A model generated the notes under the pieces. The model ran no database searches, had not been told where the DNA came from, and saw only the letters and a program-made list of their open reading frames with translations. This document shows positions 5,808 to 43,730 of a stretch of 43,730 nucleotides of DNA, piece by piece; the first letter of the stretch is position 1; each line of letters begins with the position of its first letter. This DNA is from a virus. The position numbers and the translations under genes are program-made. The DNA is taken from positions 1 through 43,730 of IMG/VR virus record IMGVR_UViG_3300002180_000005, one strand, 5' to 3'.

Positions 5808-7507
5808 CCAGAACTACAGTATCCTCCTCAGAAGCTAAGATGATCCAACGACTTCTCGACTACCGTAAGAACACTGAGTTGCACGCAGCCCAGTGTTTAA
5901 AGGTTATCACCAAAGAAGCTGCGTTACTGCCTCTTATTCTGAACAAGCCTCAGCAGATAATCCACGCCAAGCTGGAGGAGCAGAGAGCACAGCATGGCCT
6001 GGTTCGCGCTATCATCCTGAAAGGCCGTAAGCAGGGTGCTTCAACTTACATAGCGGGCAGGTTCTATTCTAAGACACGCCTGTACAAGTACCGTAACGCC
6101 AAGGTCATGGCGCACGTTCAGGACTCGACCAACGCTCTATTTTCTATGGTTAAGACCATGTACGATAATGACCCAATCAGACTCCGCGCCGACACTTCTA
6201 ACGCCAAACAGTTCACCTTTTCGAATCAGTCAAGCTACACGGTGGCCACGGCTGGCGGCGCCGGGGAATCAGGTCGCGGAGACACCCCGACACTGGCTCA
6301 CCTGTCTGAGGTCGCTTTCTACAAGGATGCGGCTAAGAACTTCGCTGGCTTCGCTAACTCTGTACCTATGGCACCGGAAACTGAGGTGGTGGTAGAGTCC
6401 ACGGCTAACGGTATCGGAAACGAATTCCACCGTAGATGGGTTCGGGCTGAGTCCGGGCTTACGGAGACAGTTGATGGCGGGGCGGTTTCGTATATCCCGA
6501 TCTTCATACCGTGGTTCTGGTCCGACGAGTACCAGCTACCGGTACACCCGAAATTCGAACTCAGAACAGATCCAGAGGGCGACGGGATGCCTTCTGAGCG
6601 CGACATATTCGAGATGCACGATCTCACCCTACCACAGATGGCTTGGCGACGGTTCCAGCTAGAGGAATCGCTAGGTACTGTCGAGAAATTCATGCAGGAG
6701 TACCCGTGCACCCCATCAGAGGCCTTTCAAACACCTGGCCTAGACCTGTTTATCAAGCCGGTGTACGTTATGCGTGCAAGGCGACGGGATGGCATTATAC
6801 CGTACGGGCCTAAGATTTTAGGTGTTGACCCGAACGGGGAAGGATCTGACCAGTTCTCTACAACTTTCCGCCAAGGTCACGTTGTTCACTGGACAAAGAA
6901 CCGGACTGGGCTTGACCCAGGTGAGGAGCAGGTAGAGTTCGTCAAAGACCTGATCGTAACACACCAAATCGACCGCGTGAACATTGATTATGGCGGAGGT
7001 TACGGTACAGCCCTAATGCAAGGGCTTAGAGAGAAGTACCCGGCTTTGGCTGAGAAGTGTTTCTATGTTGACTTCGGAGGCAAGAGTCAGTTCAAGATGG
7101 TGAAGCCCCACGCCCCAGGCCCGAGAAACAGACGTGCTGAAATGTACATGCGCGGCCGTGACTGGTTCGAAAACCCAGAGGGCGTATCTATACCGGATGA
7201 AGACGAACTGCAGTCTGATCTTGGCCAGGTGTGCGCACGAATCGGCGGGCAGAGTACGGATACCGTTATTGAACCCAAGATTGACATTAAGAAAAGATTG
7301 GGTCGGTCCCCTGACACAGCAGACAGCTTCGTACTTACCTTTGCAGTACCAGACGGGTCTGTAGAGTCGGGATTGACAGAAACGCCAACGTCATCTAGTG
7401 TTGCGTTTGAACAAGGTATTGTACCGAAAGAAACCACCCCTCCACCGGAAAGTAACTGGGGAAATGGAGGTTTAGGGTTTGACTCTGGCGGAGGATGGAT
7501 GGGCTGA
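5804..7507 (+). CDS. terL: Terminase large subunit
   Basis: The packaging ATPase-nuclease. Walker A-like KGRKQGAST lies at residues 73-81, a Walker B-like SEVAFY at 168-173 and the coupling motif VVVESTANG at 195-203. The C-terminal RNase H-like nuclease shows ILGVDPNGEGSD near residue 340 and VNIDYGGGYG near 392, with acidic residues expected to hold metal. At 567 residues the length is normal. It drives DNA through the portal and cuts it. The C-terminal 40 residues are Pro/Gly-rich and probably flexible. It overlaps the portal start (TGATG). Confidence 0.93.
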   Translation: MTRTTVSSSEAKMIQRLLDYRKNTELHAAQCLKVITKEAALLPLILNKPQQIIHAKLEEQRAQHGLVRAIILKGRKQGASTYIAGRFYSKTRLYKYRNAKVMAHVQDSTNALFSMVKTMYDNDPIRLRADTSNAKQFTFSNQSSYTVATAGGAGESGRGDTPTLAHLSEVAFYKDAAKNFAGFANSVPMAPETEVVVESTANGIGNEFHRRWVRAESGLTETVDGGAVSYIPIFIPWFWSDEYQLPVHPKFELRTDPEGDGMPSERDIFEMHDLTLPQMAWRRFQLEESLGTVEKFMQEYPCTPSEAFQTPGLDLFIKPVYVMRARRRDGIIPYGPKILGVDPNGEGSDQFSTTFRQGHVVHWTKNRTGLDPGEEQVEFVKDLIVTHQIDRVNIDYGGGYGTALMQGLREKYPALAEKCFYVDFGGKSQFKMVKPHAPGPRNRRAEMYMRGRDWFENPEGVSIPDEDELQSDLGQVCARIGGQSTDTVIEPKIDIKKRLGRSPDTADSFVLTFAVPDGSVESGLTETPTSSSVAFEQGIVPKETTPPPESNWGNGGLGFDSGGGWMG

Positions 7508-9699
7508 TGTCTATTAGACAAAAAATTGAAGTCGTCCTAAGTGGCGGAAAACGCCACGCTATGAGCGGCGAAAACAATTCGGATTTCCTATCCAAGGTGA
7601 CCCGCACGTACCATATGGATTTCCAAGCAGACTACCATAACATGGAGCCTGGACGGGAAGACATGCAGTTCGTTATCGGTGACCAGTGGGAGGAGAACGC
7701 CCGTAGGCGCCGAAACCACCAGAAGAAACCGGTTATAACTGTGAACCGGCTGCCCGCCTTTGTGGCCCAGTACATGGGGTCTTACCTCCAGTCGGACACC
7801 ACCATCAAAGTATCCCCCACCAGTGCAGGTTCCAAGAAGACCGCTGAGATTCGGCAAGGTATCATCCGCACCATTATGCGCACTAACACCGCAAAACTGG
7901 CCAGGAACAAAGCTGCTGAAGGTCAGTACATCTGTGGGGTAGGTAACTTCGCACTTGAGGTCGTGGACGCTGAAAACGATGTGTTCCTAAGGGACATAAA
8001 GATGAAGACACTGGCGGATCCTTTCCAAGTTGTATGGGACCGCGCCTCTAAAGATCCGACTGGCGCCGACGCGCAGCACTGTTTCGTTTTCGATTGGATG
8101 ACTCGCGAGGACTTCAAGAAAACGTACCCAGATAACGCTGAAGATTCCGGGTGGTCCCCGAACGATATAGATTCCACTGTTATGACTGGCCACGGCTGGG
8201 AAGTGGATGAAATGGTTCGAATCTGCTATTTCTACCAGATGAAGCGTGAAGAAATAACCCTTGGTCTTGAGCGAGACACCGGTGACGTTATCGACGTATC
8301 GGACATGTCCAAAGACGAGATTATGAGTAAAGTCGAGTTCGATGACGATGGAGACCCTATCGTTAGGGAGACAACCACCCCGTACTGCGAAGTCCACATT
8401 ATAACGTCCGACAATGTTCTGGAGGGGCCGCAGCGACTGAACATATCACGCCTACCTGTTTTCCGCAGTGAGGGTTGGGCTTTGACTCAGGCGTCTGTCA
8501 GGTTCCGGTGGGGCTTTATTCGAAACGCTAAAGATCCGCAGAGAATCCACAACTTCTGGCGGTCTACGTTGGCTTCAGAATTGATGAAGTCCACTGCAGG
8601 CACTTGGCTTCTGGACATCGCTGGCGCCAAGAACGGTCTAGCGGATAAGTTCCGTAAGGCCCACAGAGATGGGGACAACGTGCTTACGTGGGATTCCCAA
8701 GCAGATGGCGCCAAACCGGAAATGATACCTCCACCACCTCTGAACCAAGCGGTGTTGACTGAAGCGGAGATGACGGTTCGCGATATTCGCGACGTCACCA
8801 ACCGCCACGAGGCTTCTATGGGCCAAGCCTCAAACGAGGTATCTGGCAAGGCGATCAACGCAAGACAGAGAGTTTCGGAACTTGGAGATGTCGTTTACAC
8901 AGACAACCATAACATGGCTCTGGCTGAAGCTGGTCGGGTTATCAACGAACTGATACCGGCCGTTTACGACACTGCAAGAACGGTTAAGGTGACTGGAGAG
9001 GACGACGCAGAGTCCCTTCAGGCCATTAACGGCGATATGGGCGATGCTACACCAGACGTCACACTTGGAAAATACGCGATTACCTATTCCACAGGACCAT
9101 CTTACGCCACCAAACGCCAAGAGTCGGTAGACGTGATTCTTACCCTTATGAACACTATGCCCTCAGTTGGTAACATGGTCGCAGATATTCTGGTTCGTAA
9201 CATGGATATCCCAGGTGCCGATGAAATTGAGGAGCGTCTAGCTTACATGCTTCCTGAAGGTATGTTGAATCTGGACAAGGTATCAGAGGAGCGTAAGGAA
9301 CGTATCCTAAAACAGCAGGAAGCGCAGAAACAAGCCCAGAATCAGCAGATGGCTATGCAAATGGCACAGTTCCAAGAGGAGTTGAATAAGCTGCGTGCTG
9401 AGGTTGCGGAATCTGGCTCCAGAGCGCGTAAGAATGACGCTCAGGCTATGGTTGCCGCCTCTGAGGTAGGTGTATCCGCTGCTGAGGTTGACGTGAAGCA
9501 GGATAAAGCTATTATAGACGCAGCGAAAGCTGGAGCGGTTATAGACCAACAAGGTATTGACATGTTCCAGCACGGTTTAACCCTAGCGGCTGGTGTCGCA
9601 TCTGAAAAAAAGGAAGATCAAAATGCCCAAACCAACAACACGCAAGGCGGCGATGGCAGCGGGGCGCAAGCGACGGACCAAGGCTCTCCAGTCGGGTAA
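7507..9699 (+). CDS. Portal protein, P22 gp1-like
   Basis: A 730-residue protein with the N-terminal layout of P22-type portals: an early helix (FLSKVTRTYHMDFQADY), FVIGDQWEENARRRR, then KKPVITVNRLPAFVAQ. It forms the dodecameric ring through which DNA enters and leaves and binds the terminase and the head-completion proteins. The C-terminal 130 residues are Gln/Ala-rich coiled coil, as in long-barrel portals. The ATG at 7507 overlaps the terL stop and is preferred over the ATG at 7495, which has no room for a ribosome binding site. It lies directly between terL and the scaffold genes, the usual order. Confidence 0.9.
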   Translation: MSIRQKIEVVLSGGKRHAMSGENNSDFLSKVTRTYHMDFQADYHNMEPGREDMQFVIGDQWEENARRRRNHQKKPVITVNRLPAFVAQYMGSYLQSDTTIKVSPTSAGSKKTAEIRQGIIRTIMRTNTAKLARNKAAEGQYICGVGNFALEVVDAENDVFLRDIKMKTLADPFQVVWDRASKDPTGADAQHCFVFDWMTREDFKKTYPDNAEDSGWSPNDIDSTVMTGHGWEVDEMVRICYFYQMKREEITLGLERDTGDVIDVSDMSKDEIMSKVEFDDDGDPIVRETTTPYCEVHIITSDNVLEGPQRLNISRLPVFRSEGWALTQASVRFRWGFIRNAKDPQRIHNFWRSTLASELMKSTAGTWLLDIAGAKNGLADKFRKAHRDGDNVLTWDSQADGAKPEMIPPPPLNQAVLTEAEMTVRDIRDVTNRHEASMGQASNEVSGKAINARQRVSELGDVVYTDNHNMALAEAGRVINELIPAVYDTARTVKVTGEDDAESLQAINGDMGDATPDVTLGKYAITYSTGPSYATKRQESVDVILTLMNTMPSVGNMVADILVRNMDIPGADEIEERLAYMLPEGMLNLDKVSEERKERILKQQEAQKQAQNQQMAMQMAQFQEELNKLRAEVAESGSRARKNDAQAMVAASEVGVSAAEVDVKQDKAIIDAAKAGAVIDQQGIDMFQHGLTLAAGVASEKKEDQNAQTNNTQGGDGSGAQATDQGSPVG

Positions 9700-30086: not shown

Positions 30087-30620
30087 TTACCCTTTCTTCT
30101 TCAGGATACGTCCGACCGCCGCGACTGCATCAGCATACCGGTCAGCGGGAATCATCATGTTAAGGGCCAGGAACCCGCTGGTGCTGGTTTGCGAAACCAT
30201 ATTAGCGCTCGTTTCTGGCGCTGGTTCCTGCCATCCCGTGTCTGACGCTGCAGCAGGTGCGGCGGTAGGTGTATTAACCACCTCAGCATCTGGAACATTA
30301 GATGTGTCAACCACCGGACCAGCCTGACCAGCGTTAGCGAAAGGATTCGCCTGCTCAGTCTGAACTGGCTGCTGAGGCGCAGGCGCAGCAACTTCTTGCT
30401 GAATACTCTGAACCTGCTGAGTCGGTGCTGGTGGTGTACCTTGGCTGGTGAAAGGATTAGCCGGTGCTGCGTCAGCAGGTTGGGCGGCTTGTGCGCCAAA
30501 AGGATTAGCCGGTGCTGCGTCAGCAGGTTGGGCGGCTTGTGCGCCAAAAGGATTAGCCGGTGCTGCGTCAGCAGGTTGGGCGGCTTGTGCAGCGTCTGAT
30601 TTAAATTGAAGGTCTGCCAT
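30087..30620 (-). CDS. Nested in-frame product: NPF-repeat protein (177 aa)
   Basis: AGGAGAAC lies nine bases before an ATG at 30620-30618 that is in frame with the helicase, starting MADLQFKSDAAQ. The product has three near-identical 16-residue repeats (AAQAAQPADAAPANPF type), more NPF motifs, a Pro/Gln-rich linker and a folded-looking basic C-terminus (IPADRYADAVAAVGRILKKKG). The upstream codons (LDTTNQENEP) look like a translated leader. It probably began as a separate gene whose upstream stop codon was lost. Function unknown. Confidence 0.5.
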   Translation of the reverse strand: MADLQFKSDAAQAAQPADAAPANPFGAQAAQPADAAPANPFGAQAAQPADAAPANPFTSQGTPPAPTQQVQSIQQEVAAPAPQQPVQTEQANPFANAGQAGPVVDTSNVPDAEVVNTPTAAPAAASDTGWQEPAPETSANMVSQTSTSGFLALNMMIPADRYADAVAAVGRILKKKG

Positions 30621-32045
30621 TGGTTCGTTCTCCTGGTTTGTTGTGTCAAGGGTTATACTATCGCCAAACTCAACCGTCAAGGCTGTTAACAACGCATCTT
30701 GTAACGTTGCTTTCTCCTCTCGGGCTGAAACGGCTATTTCGTCAACGGATCGTTCCGTGACAAAAGTGTGGATGACCACTGATTCGGCTTTGTTACCCTG
30801 CCTCCTCAATCGGTCATTAAACTGAATGTAGTGGTCGAGGTCGAATGTCGGACCCCACCAAAGTATATGATGTGCGTTACCTTTCTGGAGGTTAAGGCCG
30901 TGACCCGCTGACGCTGGATGCGCCGCCATTATCTGTATTTCGCCACTGTTCCATCTGTCCACGTTTGACAACGCAGTGGTTTCATTCACTCCGGCGCCAA
31001 GATACGGAATGTCGTCACCAAGAATTTCTCTGATCTGGGTGAGGTCGTGGTTAAATTCGTAAGCGATAAGAAGTTGTTCGGACCCTAGTTCTTCAACCAA
31101 CTCACGTAAAGCATCGGCTTTTGCGGAGTGTATCTGAATTACTTTCCTGTCTTCATCATAGACGCGGCCATTTGCCATCTGCTTCAGTTTACCGACCAGA
31201 ACAGCGGCATTGGCTGCAGTAAGAACCGTTCCCTCACCCAGTTGGGTAACAAGGTTCTGTTTCAAGGTGGTGTATTCTTTCCTGGCTTTAGCGTCCAGCG
31301 GTATTACGCGTGGGTCGTGTACGAACTCTGGAAGGTCTAGGAACCCATCGGCCCTGAAGATATAAGGCTCGATTCTTGCCTCAATAGCCTCTTGGGCGCC
31401 GGGGCGTGGCAGCCAGGTGAATCCGTCATAGTGCTTTTCGAAGAATTCCTGTCTGAATCTGGTGATTCGATTACCCAGCGCCGCGCCACCGTCCAGTATC
31501 ATAAACTGGCCAAACAGATCCATTAGGCCATTTGATGCAGGTGTACCAGTCAACCCCCATCGGTATGTAGCCATAGCTGCCAGTGGACGGATGGACTTGA
31601 ACCGTTTACCGGTCGCGTTCTTCATACGTCGCACTTCGTCAAAAACAATAACATCGAACTGTATGGTCAACATGCCCTTCTTGGCAAGACCGCTCAACCA
31701 AGGAATACCCTCGTAATTTACAAGCCAGATATTCACGTCGCGGCGCTTCAACCACTTCTCCTTTTTAGGTCCGTGCAGCCGTGCAGCTACCAAACCCTTC
31801 AGGGAGGCCCAGTTCTCTATCTCTTGCGCCCAGACGGTCTGGACGACACGTAGAGGAGCGATAATCAACATGCTCTTTACCATACCGGCATCGTACAGCG
31901 CCTTGAAGGTGTGCAGGACGATCATTGTCTTACCGTAACCTGGGTCCAACCACAGAACCGCTGCACCGCCTGTCGCGGTGGAGTTCCACAGGTGACGTGA
32001 TCCAGAAACCTGATACGGGTGTGCGTCGGTTTGGAAGTCAAGCAT
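30087..32045 (-). CDS. SNF2-type superfamily 2 helicase with a fused repeat-rich tail
   Basis: Residues 1-475 form a complete phage SNF2-like helicase. They hold LDPGYGKT (Walker A), VFDEVRR (a DExx box with Arg in place of His), LTGTPASNG (motif III), AHPASAGHGLNLQ (motif V) and QFNDRLRRQGN (motif VI). The frame then runs on without a stop into a 177-residue Ala/Pro/Gln-rich tail with NPF repeats. An internal ATG at 30620 with its own strong ribosome binding site marks the join, so the tail is probably also made alone. The start overlaps the VRR-NUC gene by 8 bases, a common phage pair. Confidence 0.85.
   Translation of the reverse strand: MLDFQTDAHPYQVSGSRHLWNSTATGGAAVLWLDPGYGKTMIVLHTFKALYDAGMVKSMLIIAPLRVVQTVWAQEIENWASLKGLVAARLHGPKKEKWLKRRDVNIWLVNYEGIPWLSGLAKKGMLTIQFDVIVFDEVRRMKNATGKRFKSIRPLAAMATYRWGLTGTPASNGLMDLFGQFMILDGGAALGNRITRFRQEFFEKHYDGFTWLPRPGAQEAIEARIEPYIFRADGFLDLPEFVHDPRVIPLDAKARKEYTTLKQNLVTQLGEGTVLTAANAAVLVGKLKQMANGRVYDEDRKVIQIHSAKADALRELVEELGSEQLLIAYEFNHDLTQIREILGDDIPYLGAGVNETTALSNVDRWNSGEIQIMAAHPASAGHGLNLQKGNAHHILWWGPTFDLDHYIQFNDRLRRQGNKAESVVIHTFVTERSVDEIAVSAREEKATLQDALLTALTVEFGDSITLDTTNQENEPMADLQFKSDAAQAAQPADAAPANPFGAQAAQPADAAPANPFGAQAAQPADAAPANPFTSQGTPPAPTQQVQSIQQEVAAPAPQQPVQTEQANPFANAGQAGPVVDTSNVPDAEVVNTPTAAPAAASDTGWQEPAPETSANMVSQTSTSGFLALNMMIPADRYADAVAAVGRILKKKG
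30451..30590 (-). repeat. 48-base tandem repeat, three copies
   Basis: Copies start at 30451, 30499 and 30547 with a period of exactly 48 bases (16 codons). The core of each copy is identical at the nucleotide level, which points to recent slippage or unequal exchange. They encode the Ala-Gln-Pro-Ala-Asp / ANPFG repeats of the helicase tail. Confidence 0.9.
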
Positions 32046-40938: not shown

Positions 40939-41988
40939 CTATTTGAAACTGGCACCTACGAAGTCCCAAACACGTCCTGAATCTTCGGATACCTTTTTTA
41001 TTTCGTCGCGATTATATTGTTGACGTTCAAGCGCATCGTTCCAAACACGCGCGTCAATAAGTTTGTCAATTTCAGTGGTAATAAGTTGCCCGATAACTGA
41101 TGGTGTAAGAGCATCCAGTTCCCAAGATTCGTAACCATGCTCCATTATATAGTCCTTGGCTCTGCTGTCTGACATTTTAGCAGGGTTTGGTGGTGGACCG
41201 TACTTTTCAACTTGGTCGCGATTTAGTGCAATACGGCGAATATCGATAAATTGTTCGCTGAACATCTCCAAGCGAGCATGGTTGTCACGCGTCATATCAA
41301 TTCCGCTTGGGTCGTGGTCTCCGAGATGGATCAGCACGCAGTCCTTGCCTTTTTCGCCTGCAGCCTTGAAGCGTTGACCTGCAGCCCATTGCGCAGACGC
41401 AGACATATAACCTTTACATGCCATGAACGGTACTTGCAGCTTGGAACATGGTCGTTCGATGACTGATGACAAAGCATCTTTCTCAACCCAAACTTCGACA
41501 TAGGTTTCTTGGTCAGTCCAAAGTCCTTCGGTATAATGGTGGTGAATACCTTCCAGCACCGACTCTGGTGACGCTTGAAAATATGGTTCATCAACCACCC
41601 GGCCACGATCTTCGATTCGCTCAAATGAAATTAGACCGGCCAAGCGAGCGTCGGTAATGATTCCACCAAGTCGCTTATACGACTGGTCTGTGTTGGGAAA
41701 CGAACTGTCGCTAGAAACGAACTGGTAGTATAGTTGACGTAAGGTCAGCATGTAACCTTGTTTCTCATAGTCCGCCAAAATTCTGTTTGCCTTGGTTATA
41801 ATGTCCATATGGTCTTGGTTGAAATTCTTATCCACATAGACTTGGTACTGTGCCAAATCCCCAAAGTCTTGACGTTCTCCACATAGATCACAGAATACTG
41901 TTCCGGGATCGTTATGGTTCCCACATCCTTCTGTACATTCAATAGCCGTTTCGTCAACAGTTACCCCATCATCAAGATACAAAACCAT
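40939..41988 (-). CDS. Zinc-ribbon Spo11/Topo VIA-like TOPRIM protein (349 aa)
   Basis: The ATG at 41988 overlaps the previous stop (TAATG) and has AAGGGAG eight bases upstream. Residues 18-36 are a C-x3-C-x10-C-x2-C zinc ribbon. LTLRQLYYQF at 81-90 resembles the Spo11/Topo VIA RDIYY motif, with Tyr88 the candidate nucleophile. A TOPRIM region follows: VEKDAL at 168-173 (Glu169) and LGDHDPSG at 222-229 (Asp224, Asp226). A topo VIB-like ATPase is absent from the genome. It may nick, cleave or bind phage or host DNA; members of this family are known in phages but not characterised to my knowledge. Confidence 0.75.
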   Translation of the reverse strand: MVLYLDDGVTVDETAIECTEGCGNHNDPGTVFCDLCGERQDFGDLAQYQVYVDKNFNQDHMDIITKANRILADYEKQGYMLTLRQLYYQFVSSDSSFPNTDQSYKRLGGIITDARLAGLISFERIEDRGRVVDEPYFQASPESVLEGIHHHYTEGLWTDQETYVEVWVEKDALSSVIERPCSKLQVPFMACKGYMSASAQWAAGQRFKAAGEKGKDCVLIHLGDHDPSGIDMTRDNHARLEMFSEQFIDIRRIALNRDQVEKYGPPPNPAKMSDSRAKDYIMEHGYESWELDALTPSVIGQLITTEIDKLIDARVWNDALERQQYNRDEIKKVSEDSGRVWDFVGASFK

Positions 41989-42350
41989 TATACACACTCC
42001 CTTTCGTCTTCCTGCTCAGGCTCTTCTTCCTGCTCAGGCTCTTCTTCCTGCTCAGGCTCTTCTTCCTGCTCAGGCTCTTCTTCCTGCTCAGGCTCTTCTT
42101 CCTGCTCAGGCTCTTCTGGGTCCGGTGTAGGTTCCCAATCGGAATCCTCCTCCTCTTCGTCTTGAGGTGGACGCGACTGCCAGCAGATAGAGGCACCCAG
42201 TATCTTGACGATTTTACCGGGGCACGCTGGCTTAATCAGCGGCGGGTTAGACCACGGAGTCGGGTTTCCGGCGCTGGCCTGCTCACCAATCAATAGTCCG
42301 ACTGTGAAGGCTAGTGTAGCTGCGATTGGTAGAGGTTTAAAATTTAACAT
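41988..42350 (-). CDS. Exported Glu/Pro hexapeptide-repeat protein (120 aa)
   Basis: A signal peptide (MLNFKPLPIAATLAFTVGLL, cleavage after ASA near residue 27) precedes a 35-residue domain with two cysteines (KPACPGKIVKILGASICWQ) and then an acidic tail of six EEPEQE repeats. The tail should be extended and rigid, like the Pro-rich spacer of TonB, and could span part of the periplasm. AAGGA precedes the ATG. Function unknown. Confidence 0.7.
   Translation of the reverse strand: MLNFKPLPIAATLAFTVGLLIGEQASAGNPTPWSNPPLIKPACPGKIVKILGASICWQSRPPQDEEEEDSDWEPTPDPEEPEQEEEPEQEEEPEQEEEPEQEEEPEQEEEPEQEDERECV
42011..42118 (-). repeat. 18-base tandem repeat, six copies
   Basis: Six copies of an 18-base unit begin at 42011, 42029, 42047, 42065, 42083 and 42101; all but the last are identical, and that one differs at its end. 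They encode the EEPEQE repeats of the exported protein. Copy number is likely to vary by slippage. Confidence 0.92.
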
Positions 42351-42368: not shown

Positions 42369-42911
42369 CTATTTCAATTCTTTCAGTAGACCGCGTGCGC
42401 CAACCAGTTTCCTTGCGGTCTCTAGGAATATAAGGCTTTCTTTACCAAGTAAATCCTTGGGTCTGGTTCGTCGCCAGTGCTCACCGGCTTCGGTAATTGG
42501 GAAGTACCTACAACCGGCCTTAATCCAAATCCCGTCTTCCCGCGTCTGAACGTAGAAGGTGTAACCATCGGATCGCTCCCCAATTCTAATAACTGAGGTA
42601 TAACCAATATTGGCTCCCTTCAAACGGACGTCTCTTATATCGGCATTGTGTAGCTTTGCGCCGAGTAAATTGGCGTCGTGAAAACTAGCGGAGTATAAAT
42701 CTGCACAGGTAAAATCTACATTTCTCAGGTAAGCGGACCGTAGACTAGCGTACCGTAGACAAGCATGTTTCAGACTTATTCCCCTCGCGTAGGCCGCTTT
42801 AACCGCCAACCCTAATTTTTCTGCCTCAGAGGCGGTTTTGTGACAGTCGAAAGCCACTGTGCAAATCGGTGATCCAGTCCAGCGGTTTCTTATGGTGTAC
42901 TCTGTCATCAT
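42369..42911 (-). CDS. Pentapeptide-repeat protein (180 aa)
   Basis: Residues 46-105 are about twelve A(x)LxxA pentapeptides (ACLRYASLRSAYLRNVDF..., DANLLGAKLHNADIRDVRL), which build a right-handed square beta helix. Qnr and MfpA proteins of this fold mimic DNA and bind gyrase. The C-terminal 75 residues form a separate domain (DGYTFYVQTREDGIWIKAGCRYFPITEAGEHW) seen in other phage pentapeptide proteins. Its closeness to the Spo11-like gene makes topology control attractive, but it is inference. Confidence 0.82.
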   Translation of the reverse strand: MMTEYTIRNRWTGSPICTVAFDCHKTASEAEKLGLAVKAAYARGISLKHACLRYASLRSAYLRNVDFTCADLYSASFHDANLLGAKLHNADIRDVRLKGANIGYTSVIRIGERSDGYTFYVQTREDGIWIKAGCRYFPITEAGEHWRRTRPKDLLGKESLIFLETARKLVGARGLLKELK

Positions 42912-43184: not shown

Positions 43185-43414
43185 TTTTCTGGCTCCGGTT
43201 CAAATAGGTCTGAAATTTCAGCACGCTTGGCCACTGTGCAGACTCGCAACGTGTGATAATTGCCCTCAATCACACGCCAATAAGGTGCCGGGTTTGGGTC
43301 ACTGGTGGACAAGGCCGCAACGATTGCGAATAGGTCAGAGTCCTTTGGCAGTAGCGGGTTGCCTGTAACCTGGGTGACAAATCGACCGTATGTTTCACCT
43401 AGTTTGAAAGTCAT
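43181..43414 (-). CDS. Hypothetical protein (77 aa)
   Basis: The ATG at 43414 has AAGGA six bases upstream and overlaps the stop of the repeat protein (ATGA), so it is preferred to the in-frame start at 43432. The product has a helix (SDLFAIVAALSTS) and a strand-rich part (YWRVIEGNYHTLRVCTVA). No family recognised. Confidence 0.6.
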   Translation of the reverse strand: MTFKLGETYGRFVTQVTGNPLLPKDSDLFAIVAALSTSDPNPAPYWRVIEGNYHTLRVCTVAKRAEISDLFEPEPEK

Positions 43415-43730
43415 TCTGTATCCTTCCACCACGCGCGTGCGAAGGCTTCAGCTTCGACGCGTTTGTATTCATTTTCCGCTGGCGTAATGGCGCGGATATA
43501 TTCCGCATACGCTGGGGACTGGACGCGGATATATTCCGCATACGCTGGGGATTCCTCGTGGTAGTCTAATACCGAAGGCTGGGAACGCGCGTATTCCTGA
43601 AGCGCCGCTGCAGTGACACGTGCATATTCCTCCAACGCTGTGATTCGGACGCGTTTGTATTCCAAATACGCTGAATCACTTATGAGTTGCCGTGCCGCCC
43701 AGTCCCAGTCAAAAACCTGAGCGTGTTTAC
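43411..43730 (-). CDS. EYxRV-repeat protein, C-terminal part (gene crosses the circular joint)
   Basis: Continues the gene that starts at 167. In the joined genome the frame runs 167 to 1 and 43690 to 43411, 148 residues. This part carries at least six repeats of about 11 residues with an EY-(K/A/I)-R core (LEYKRV, EEYARV, QEYARS, AEYIRV, AEYIRA, NEYKRV), forming long amphipathic helices. Two repeats share 28 identical bases (43491-43518 and 43524-43551). Similar small helical repeat proteins are common in phage early regions; function unknown. Bases 43691-43730 duplicate 1-40. Confidence 0.75.
   Translation of the reverse strand, partial: KHAQVFDWDWAARQLISDSAYLEYKRVRITALEEYARVTAAALQEYARSQPSVLDYHEESPAYAEYIRVQSPAYAEYIRAITPAENEYKRVEAEAFARAWWKDTE
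43491..43551 (-). repeat. 33-base-period direct repeat in the EYxRV gene
   Basis: 28 bases at 43491-43518 recur exactly at 43524-43551, a spacing of 33 bases or 11 codons. It marks a recent duplication of one AEYIR repeat. Confidence 0.88.
43691..43730. repeat. Direct terminal repeat of the assembly (right copy)
   Basis: Identical to bases 1-40; the overlap that closes the circular assembly. Confidence 0.9.

Follow-up and report, generated by a model that had tools for sequence, protein, structure and literature searches.

A Mini-A protein with a putative zinc ribbon, a solo homolog of the topoisomerase VI A subunit, in a viral replication module

Topoisomerase VI (Topo VI) is an A2B2 enzyme that requires its GHKL B subunit for strand passage. 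The tyrosine reaches the DNA when ATP drives the B subunit to close, and an A-subunit homolog working alone therefore needs another trigger. Type IIB enzymes of mobile elements include Topo VIII and Mini-A, of which the former carries a GHKL ATPase part and the latter does not. The Mini-A family was reportedly published by Takahashi et al. in 2020. Topo VIII and Mini-A are described together in a 2021 review, where Mini-A proteins are presented as truncated Top6A homologs of archaeoviruses and bacteriophages, with Pseudomonas phage NP1 as the exemplar (PMC7614492, Fig. 4A). Mobile elements are the main carriers of Mini-A genes (PMC8185306), whose function is unknown (PMC8084294), and no activity is reported for any Mini-A protein (PMC8084294, PMC8185306).

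The gene described here lies in the window, the whole 43,730-nucleotide stretch of DNA that was analyzed (IMG/VR record IMGVR_UViG_3300002180_000005, positions 1 to 43,730), which is of viral origin, containing portal, terminase, and polymerase genes. The portal protein (7495-9699, + strand) is P22-like, with 28-30% identity to proteins of Vibrio and Shewanella phages, and points to a podovirus-like head. The gene of interest occupies 40939-41988 on the - strand, running from an ATG at 41988 to a stop at 40939 and encoding 349 amino acids. The open frame spans 40939-41997 (-) and includes an in-frame GTG at 41997 that would give 352 amino acids, but the ATG at 41988, which gives the 349-residue length, is preferred because it overlaps the stop of the upstream gene as TAATG and is preceded by AAAGGGAG about 8 nt upstream. 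Residue numbers below follow the 352-residue version, in which the key segments read L86-R-Q-L-Y90-Y91-Q-F, VEVWVE172K, and HLGD227-H-D229-PSG; an earlier sequence-only reading used the 349-residue numbering, lower by three. The C4 zinc-ribbon motif, LRQLYYQF tyrosine segment, and TOPRIM with Glu and DxD on which that reading was built are all confirmed in the ORF translation, and its Tyr88, Glu169, Asp224, and Asp226 stand where it placed them. The upstream gene that overlaps the start codon (41988-42350, -) encodes a small protein that opens like a signal peptide and ends in an acidic tail with EPEQEE repeated in tandem, and another small protein, with degenerate AYAEYIRV-type repeats, is encoded where the early operon begins (43411-43665, -).

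The window gene is a member of Mini-A, an assignment based on the reviews cited above and on homology to the NP1 protein (42.7% identity, E=6e-68). Its product matches PHROG 6247, "DNA topoisomerase", over residues 52-340 (E=1.2e-104), and a translated search of isolated phages found homologs in 76 records, none reaching 60% identity; their hosts include Rhodobacter, Roseobacter, Rhizobium, Brevundimonas, Pseudomonas, Listeria, Microbacterium, Flavobacterium, and cyanobacteria. As the family has already been described, the protein is not of a new kind, and the novelty suggested by the sequence-only reading falls away. Over the winged helix and TOPRIM, Mini-A proteins (43% identity for NP1, 40-54% for others) have a core of the same length and share the invariant residues, and like the window protein they are carried by phages and come without a B subunit. 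Relatives are present in at least 188 stretches of a genome collection as well as in a larger number from a viral collection, given below. Neither Pfam nor NCBIfam recognized a family for the window protein, and the Pfam models TP6A_N and TOP6A-Spo11_Toprim did not match it, although a few homologs gave weak, sub-threshold matches to these two models. The predicted structure and the invariant residues nonetheless outline a truncated Topo VIA core, in which a winged helix with the tyrosine is followed by a TOPRIM.

More distant Mini-A relatives (25-31% identity), annotated as hypothetical, are found on about 28 Streptomyces plasmid records (H75-H87) and possibly form a plasmid branch of the family. 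Mini-A genes are also present on contigs binned as archaeal (L157, L164, and L166; Nanoarchaeota, Methanosarcinales, and Methanimicrococcus), and three Mini-A-bearing archaeal MAGs yielded no Topo VIA, which may just reflect genome incompleteness.

The working residues of Methanosarcina mazei Topo VI are R102, Y106, E202, D254, D256, and E342; R102 pairs with E342 as a clasp, and an E342Q change increases cleavage (PMC13040014). Among the archaeal Topo VIA sequences compared, most have STLR-x-[LMI]YY around the tyrosine, those with alignable numbering also have E202, D254, D256, and E342, and where the pattern K-S-E-Q-Q-[AS]-L is matched it contains E342. The counterparts in the window protein are LTLRQLYY, VWVE172, D227-H-D229, and S-W-E293-L-D-A-L, and its R87, Y91, E172, D227, D229, and E293 follow one another as the Topo VI residues do. 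The motif order common to Mini-A and Topo VI is TLR-x-LYY, VE, D-x-D, and E-x-x-[AS]-L, and Topo VIA and Spo11 likewise present R-x-x-Y-Y, the TOPRIM glutamate, D-x-D, and E-x-x-[AS]-L in this order. By its E-x-x-[AS]-L motif, E293 would pair with Topo VI E342. The motif register makes the second tyrosine, Y91, the nucleophile candidate, in agreement with the earlier choice of the same residue as Tyr88, and R87 and a fourth acid, E293, can be added to the putative active-site list.

Eight positions, R87, Y90, Y91, E172, D227, D229, E293, and D295, are identical in 145 of 145 aligned homologs, and since R87, Y90, Y91, E172, D227, D229, and E293 are invariant across these sequences, the motif residues are not a product of chance. 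With the full active-site set conserved, the window protein is probably catalytically intact. A relative that binds DNA but no longer cleaves it, its active site having decayed, would fit the name "DNA binding protein" used in some phage annotations, yet invariant catalytic positions in 145 sequences are not expected under decay, and this account is barely credible.

An AlphaFold2 model built on 72 homologs (mean pLDDT 88.2, pTM 0.78) contains a winged-helix (5Y-CAP-like) domain, encoded at 41599-41820 (-) and comprising residues 60-133, that holds R87 and Y91 (codon at 41725-41727, -), and a TOPRIM domain, encoded at 41062-41508 (-) and comprising residues 164-312, that holds the acids E172 (41482-41484), D227/D229 (41311-41319), and E293 (41119-41121), all on the - strand. 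Foldseek against the PDB gave only five matches below E=0.001, all to Topo VIA chains. In the VIA alignment, the TOPRIM half matched Topo VIA 1d3y best (Z 10.3, rmsd 3.1, 136 aligned), with MksG (8b7f, Z 9.6), JetD (7til, Z 9.4), and Spo11 (8urq, Z 8.1) among the other matches; because designed Rossmann proteins reach Z 9.3, the TOPRIM score is not decisive by itself. Predicted alone, the winged helix also had its best VIA match in 1d3y (Z 8.0, rmsd 2.2, 69 aligned, with other winged helices scoring up to Z 7.0), in an almost ungapped alignment of positions 14-86 with 1d3y 72-143 at an offset of 58, and Foldseek found no significant match for this half alone. In the model-based alignments Y91 would fall on 1d3y position 103 (Tyr103) and E172 on position 197, presumably the residues known to be catalytic in M. 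jannaschii Topo VIA.

Whole-chain TM-scores are about 0.3 and the two domains are not jointly superposable in the whole model, so the domain arrangement either differs from that of Topo VIA or is poorly predicted. Because the Topo VI tyrosine acts on the TOPRIM of the partner protomer, the two being about 10 Å apart at rest (PMC13040014), closeness of the tyrosine to the TOPRIM metal site within a resting model is unsuited as a measure for this family. A profile alignment to Topo VIA by hhalign, weak by itself, put the tyrosine, glutamate, and D-x-D in register at P=0.004, with 5 of 150 block-shuffled controls scoring higher. Searching the PDB by sequence and by profile returned chance matches only, and a search of a structural library of viral proteins returned nothing below E=0.001. 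The predicted folds of both domains resemble Topo VIA and Spo11, and together with the motif register they fit the Topo VIA/Spo11-type protein recognized by the sequence-only reading, and not JetD. Compared with Topo VIA and Spo11, the window protein is shorter, lacks Pfam-level similarity, belongs to a separate family, and has no Topo VIB or TOPOVIBL partner.

The lack of an ATPase partner, which had been noted from the window alone, extends to the family. Neither the B-subunit model top6b (TIGR01052) nor HATPase_c (PF02518) matched at E<=10 in any of 38 Mini-A-bearing virus records, namely the window and 37 others, some of them fragments, while both models did match in control genomes. A missing B subunit is therefore a trait of Mini-A and not a peculiarity of the window phage.

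Clustering of neighboring genes at about 150 Mini-A loci found no fixed partner gene. The commonest neighbors are an SNF2-like helicase (13 loci), another SF2 helicase (8 loci), a DNA polymerase, and nucleases resembling VRR-NUC or YqaJ, both nuclease names coming from a reading of the sequences. In annotated phages, the genes beside or near Mini-A encode DNA polymerase, primase, helicase, ThyX, ATP-dependent ligase, and Sak4 annealase, and also RNase H, Cas4-like exonuclease, endonuclease V, and RuvC. The window has a comparable module on one strand, with DNA polymerase, primase/helicase, SNF2-like helicase, exonuclease, and methyltransferase genes. Its SNF2-like helicase (30087-32045) belongs to the 13-locus cluster, whose members lie within six genes of Mini-A, and either this protein or another helicase could be an unrelated ATPase that Mini-A needs as a partner, much as the related TOPRIM nucleases GajA and JetD are partnered by the helicase GajB and by JetABC, respectively (PMC13040014). 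Such a dependence is unlikely, as 13 of about 150 loci is a low count with varying positions, and helicases are common in phages.

Two genes upstream of Mini-A, 42369-42911 (-) encodes a pentapeptide-repeat protein with about 11 repeats. Pentapeptide-repeat proteins can mimic DNA for gyrase and other topoisomerases. This protein was considered as a Mini-A regulator and set aside, since a simple pattern placed such a protein near Mini-A at 1 of 173 loci, that of the window itself.

The TOPRIM fold is also shared with the Wadjet and MksBEFG nucleases JetD and MksG (Z 9.4-9.6), which like the window protein have the E and D-x-D motifs. If Mini-A worked as JetD does, it might be a weapon against the host chromosome or plasmids, and occasional weak matches of homologs to the DUF2399/JetD model could be read in this way. 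Among seven JetD sequences, however, D-x-D was present in all and the E motif in most, whereas R-x-x-Y-Y was absent from all seven. JetD thus lacks the tyrosine motif and has an SMC motor partner, and the window protein is the reverse on both counts: consistent with the earlier remark that no SMC proteins are encoded, PHROG scans of the 20 larger genes recognized no SMC gene near the gene or elsewhere in the record, and no Jet genes were recognized among the window genes scanned. An hhalign comparison of the window protein family with JetD found nothing, and PADLOC had no match for the window protein. Judged by these motifs and profiles, the protein is not JetD. The replication and recombination genes among which homologs mostly lie favor a role on phage DNA over one against host DNA or plasmids. 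Contrary to an earlier suggestion, the context bears no sign of such an attack, and the weapon account is highly improbable.

The preferred reading, held at a probability of roughly 75%, is that the window protein is a catalytically intact Mini-A, a solo type IIB A-subunit homolog that most likely cuts phage DNA as a homodimer without ATP or a B subunit. It draws on family membership, active-site conservation, the predicted fold, the absence of GHKL partners, and the replication-module context. In the proposed mechanism, Tyr91 of one subunit would attack DNA lying over the metal-binding TOPRIM of its partner (Glu172, Asp227, and Asp229, with Glu293), leaving a reversible or a Spo11-like covalent 5′ protein-DNA break. 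The substrate would be bent or supercoiled phage DNA, and cleavage may serve phage replication and recombination, although conservation among the neighbors is too low to establish the pathway.

Within this reading the sequence would fit break-making and relaxing roles alike. An ATP-independent topoisomerase, which would relax or unlink phage DNA and not initiate recombination by breaks, is a possible account to be held tentatively. Annotators name Mini-A genes topoisomerase, and among Topo VIII enzymes that of Microscilla marina relaxed supercoils without ATP, while another only cleaved (PMC7614492), but this Topo VIII activity is weak (PMC7614492) and Mini-A has no ATPase gate. Somewhat unlikely is a more specific Spo11-like version, in which programmed covalent double-strand breaks, made without ATP, would start recombination-dependent phage replication and the zinc ribbon would recruit the enzyme to a particular site or partner. 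Widespread (at least 542 stretches in one viral collection) and with every residue of a Topo VI/Spo11-type active site conserved, the Mini-A family offers a natural test of whether DNA cleavage by an A subunit can dispense with an ATPase altogether, the question behind the derivation of Spo11 from Topo VI.

To this the window contributes not a new system but a Mini-A member with an extra zinc ribbon, the small novelty of this locus. The predicted motif, C21-x3-C25-x10-C36-x2-C39 (41881-41937, -; pLDDT ~73-80), lies in an N-terminal extension of about 50 residues that other Mini-A proteins lack. The Pfam match is weak and below cut-off (PF13240, E=0.071), and the four cysteines may bind zinc, in which case the ribbon would probably give this lineage an extra DNA or protein contact. 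N-terminal cysteines are rare, being found in three sequence types among about 165 homologs: the window protein, L002/L015, and L016/L212, the last being two contigs from one sample. A further candidate contig picked by DNA pattern, L215, proved to be a chance match. L016 (60% identity) keeps the four cysteines and the GNxND loop and pairs with the window protein in the tree (support 0.99). Between the window and the compared stretches of the other zinc-ribbon contigs, no flanking genes are common except for a weak primase match, so the gene has probably been transferred between different phages. The closest homolog, L002/L015 (73% identity), also keeps the four cysteines and is encoded on a 58.7-kb viral contig (IMGVR_UViG_3300029226_000028; gene at L002:5974-7050). 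Its gene is intact apart from a single in-frame TGA that stands in place of the conserved Trp of VEVWVEK and is a point nonsense mutation, a sequencing error, or recoding.
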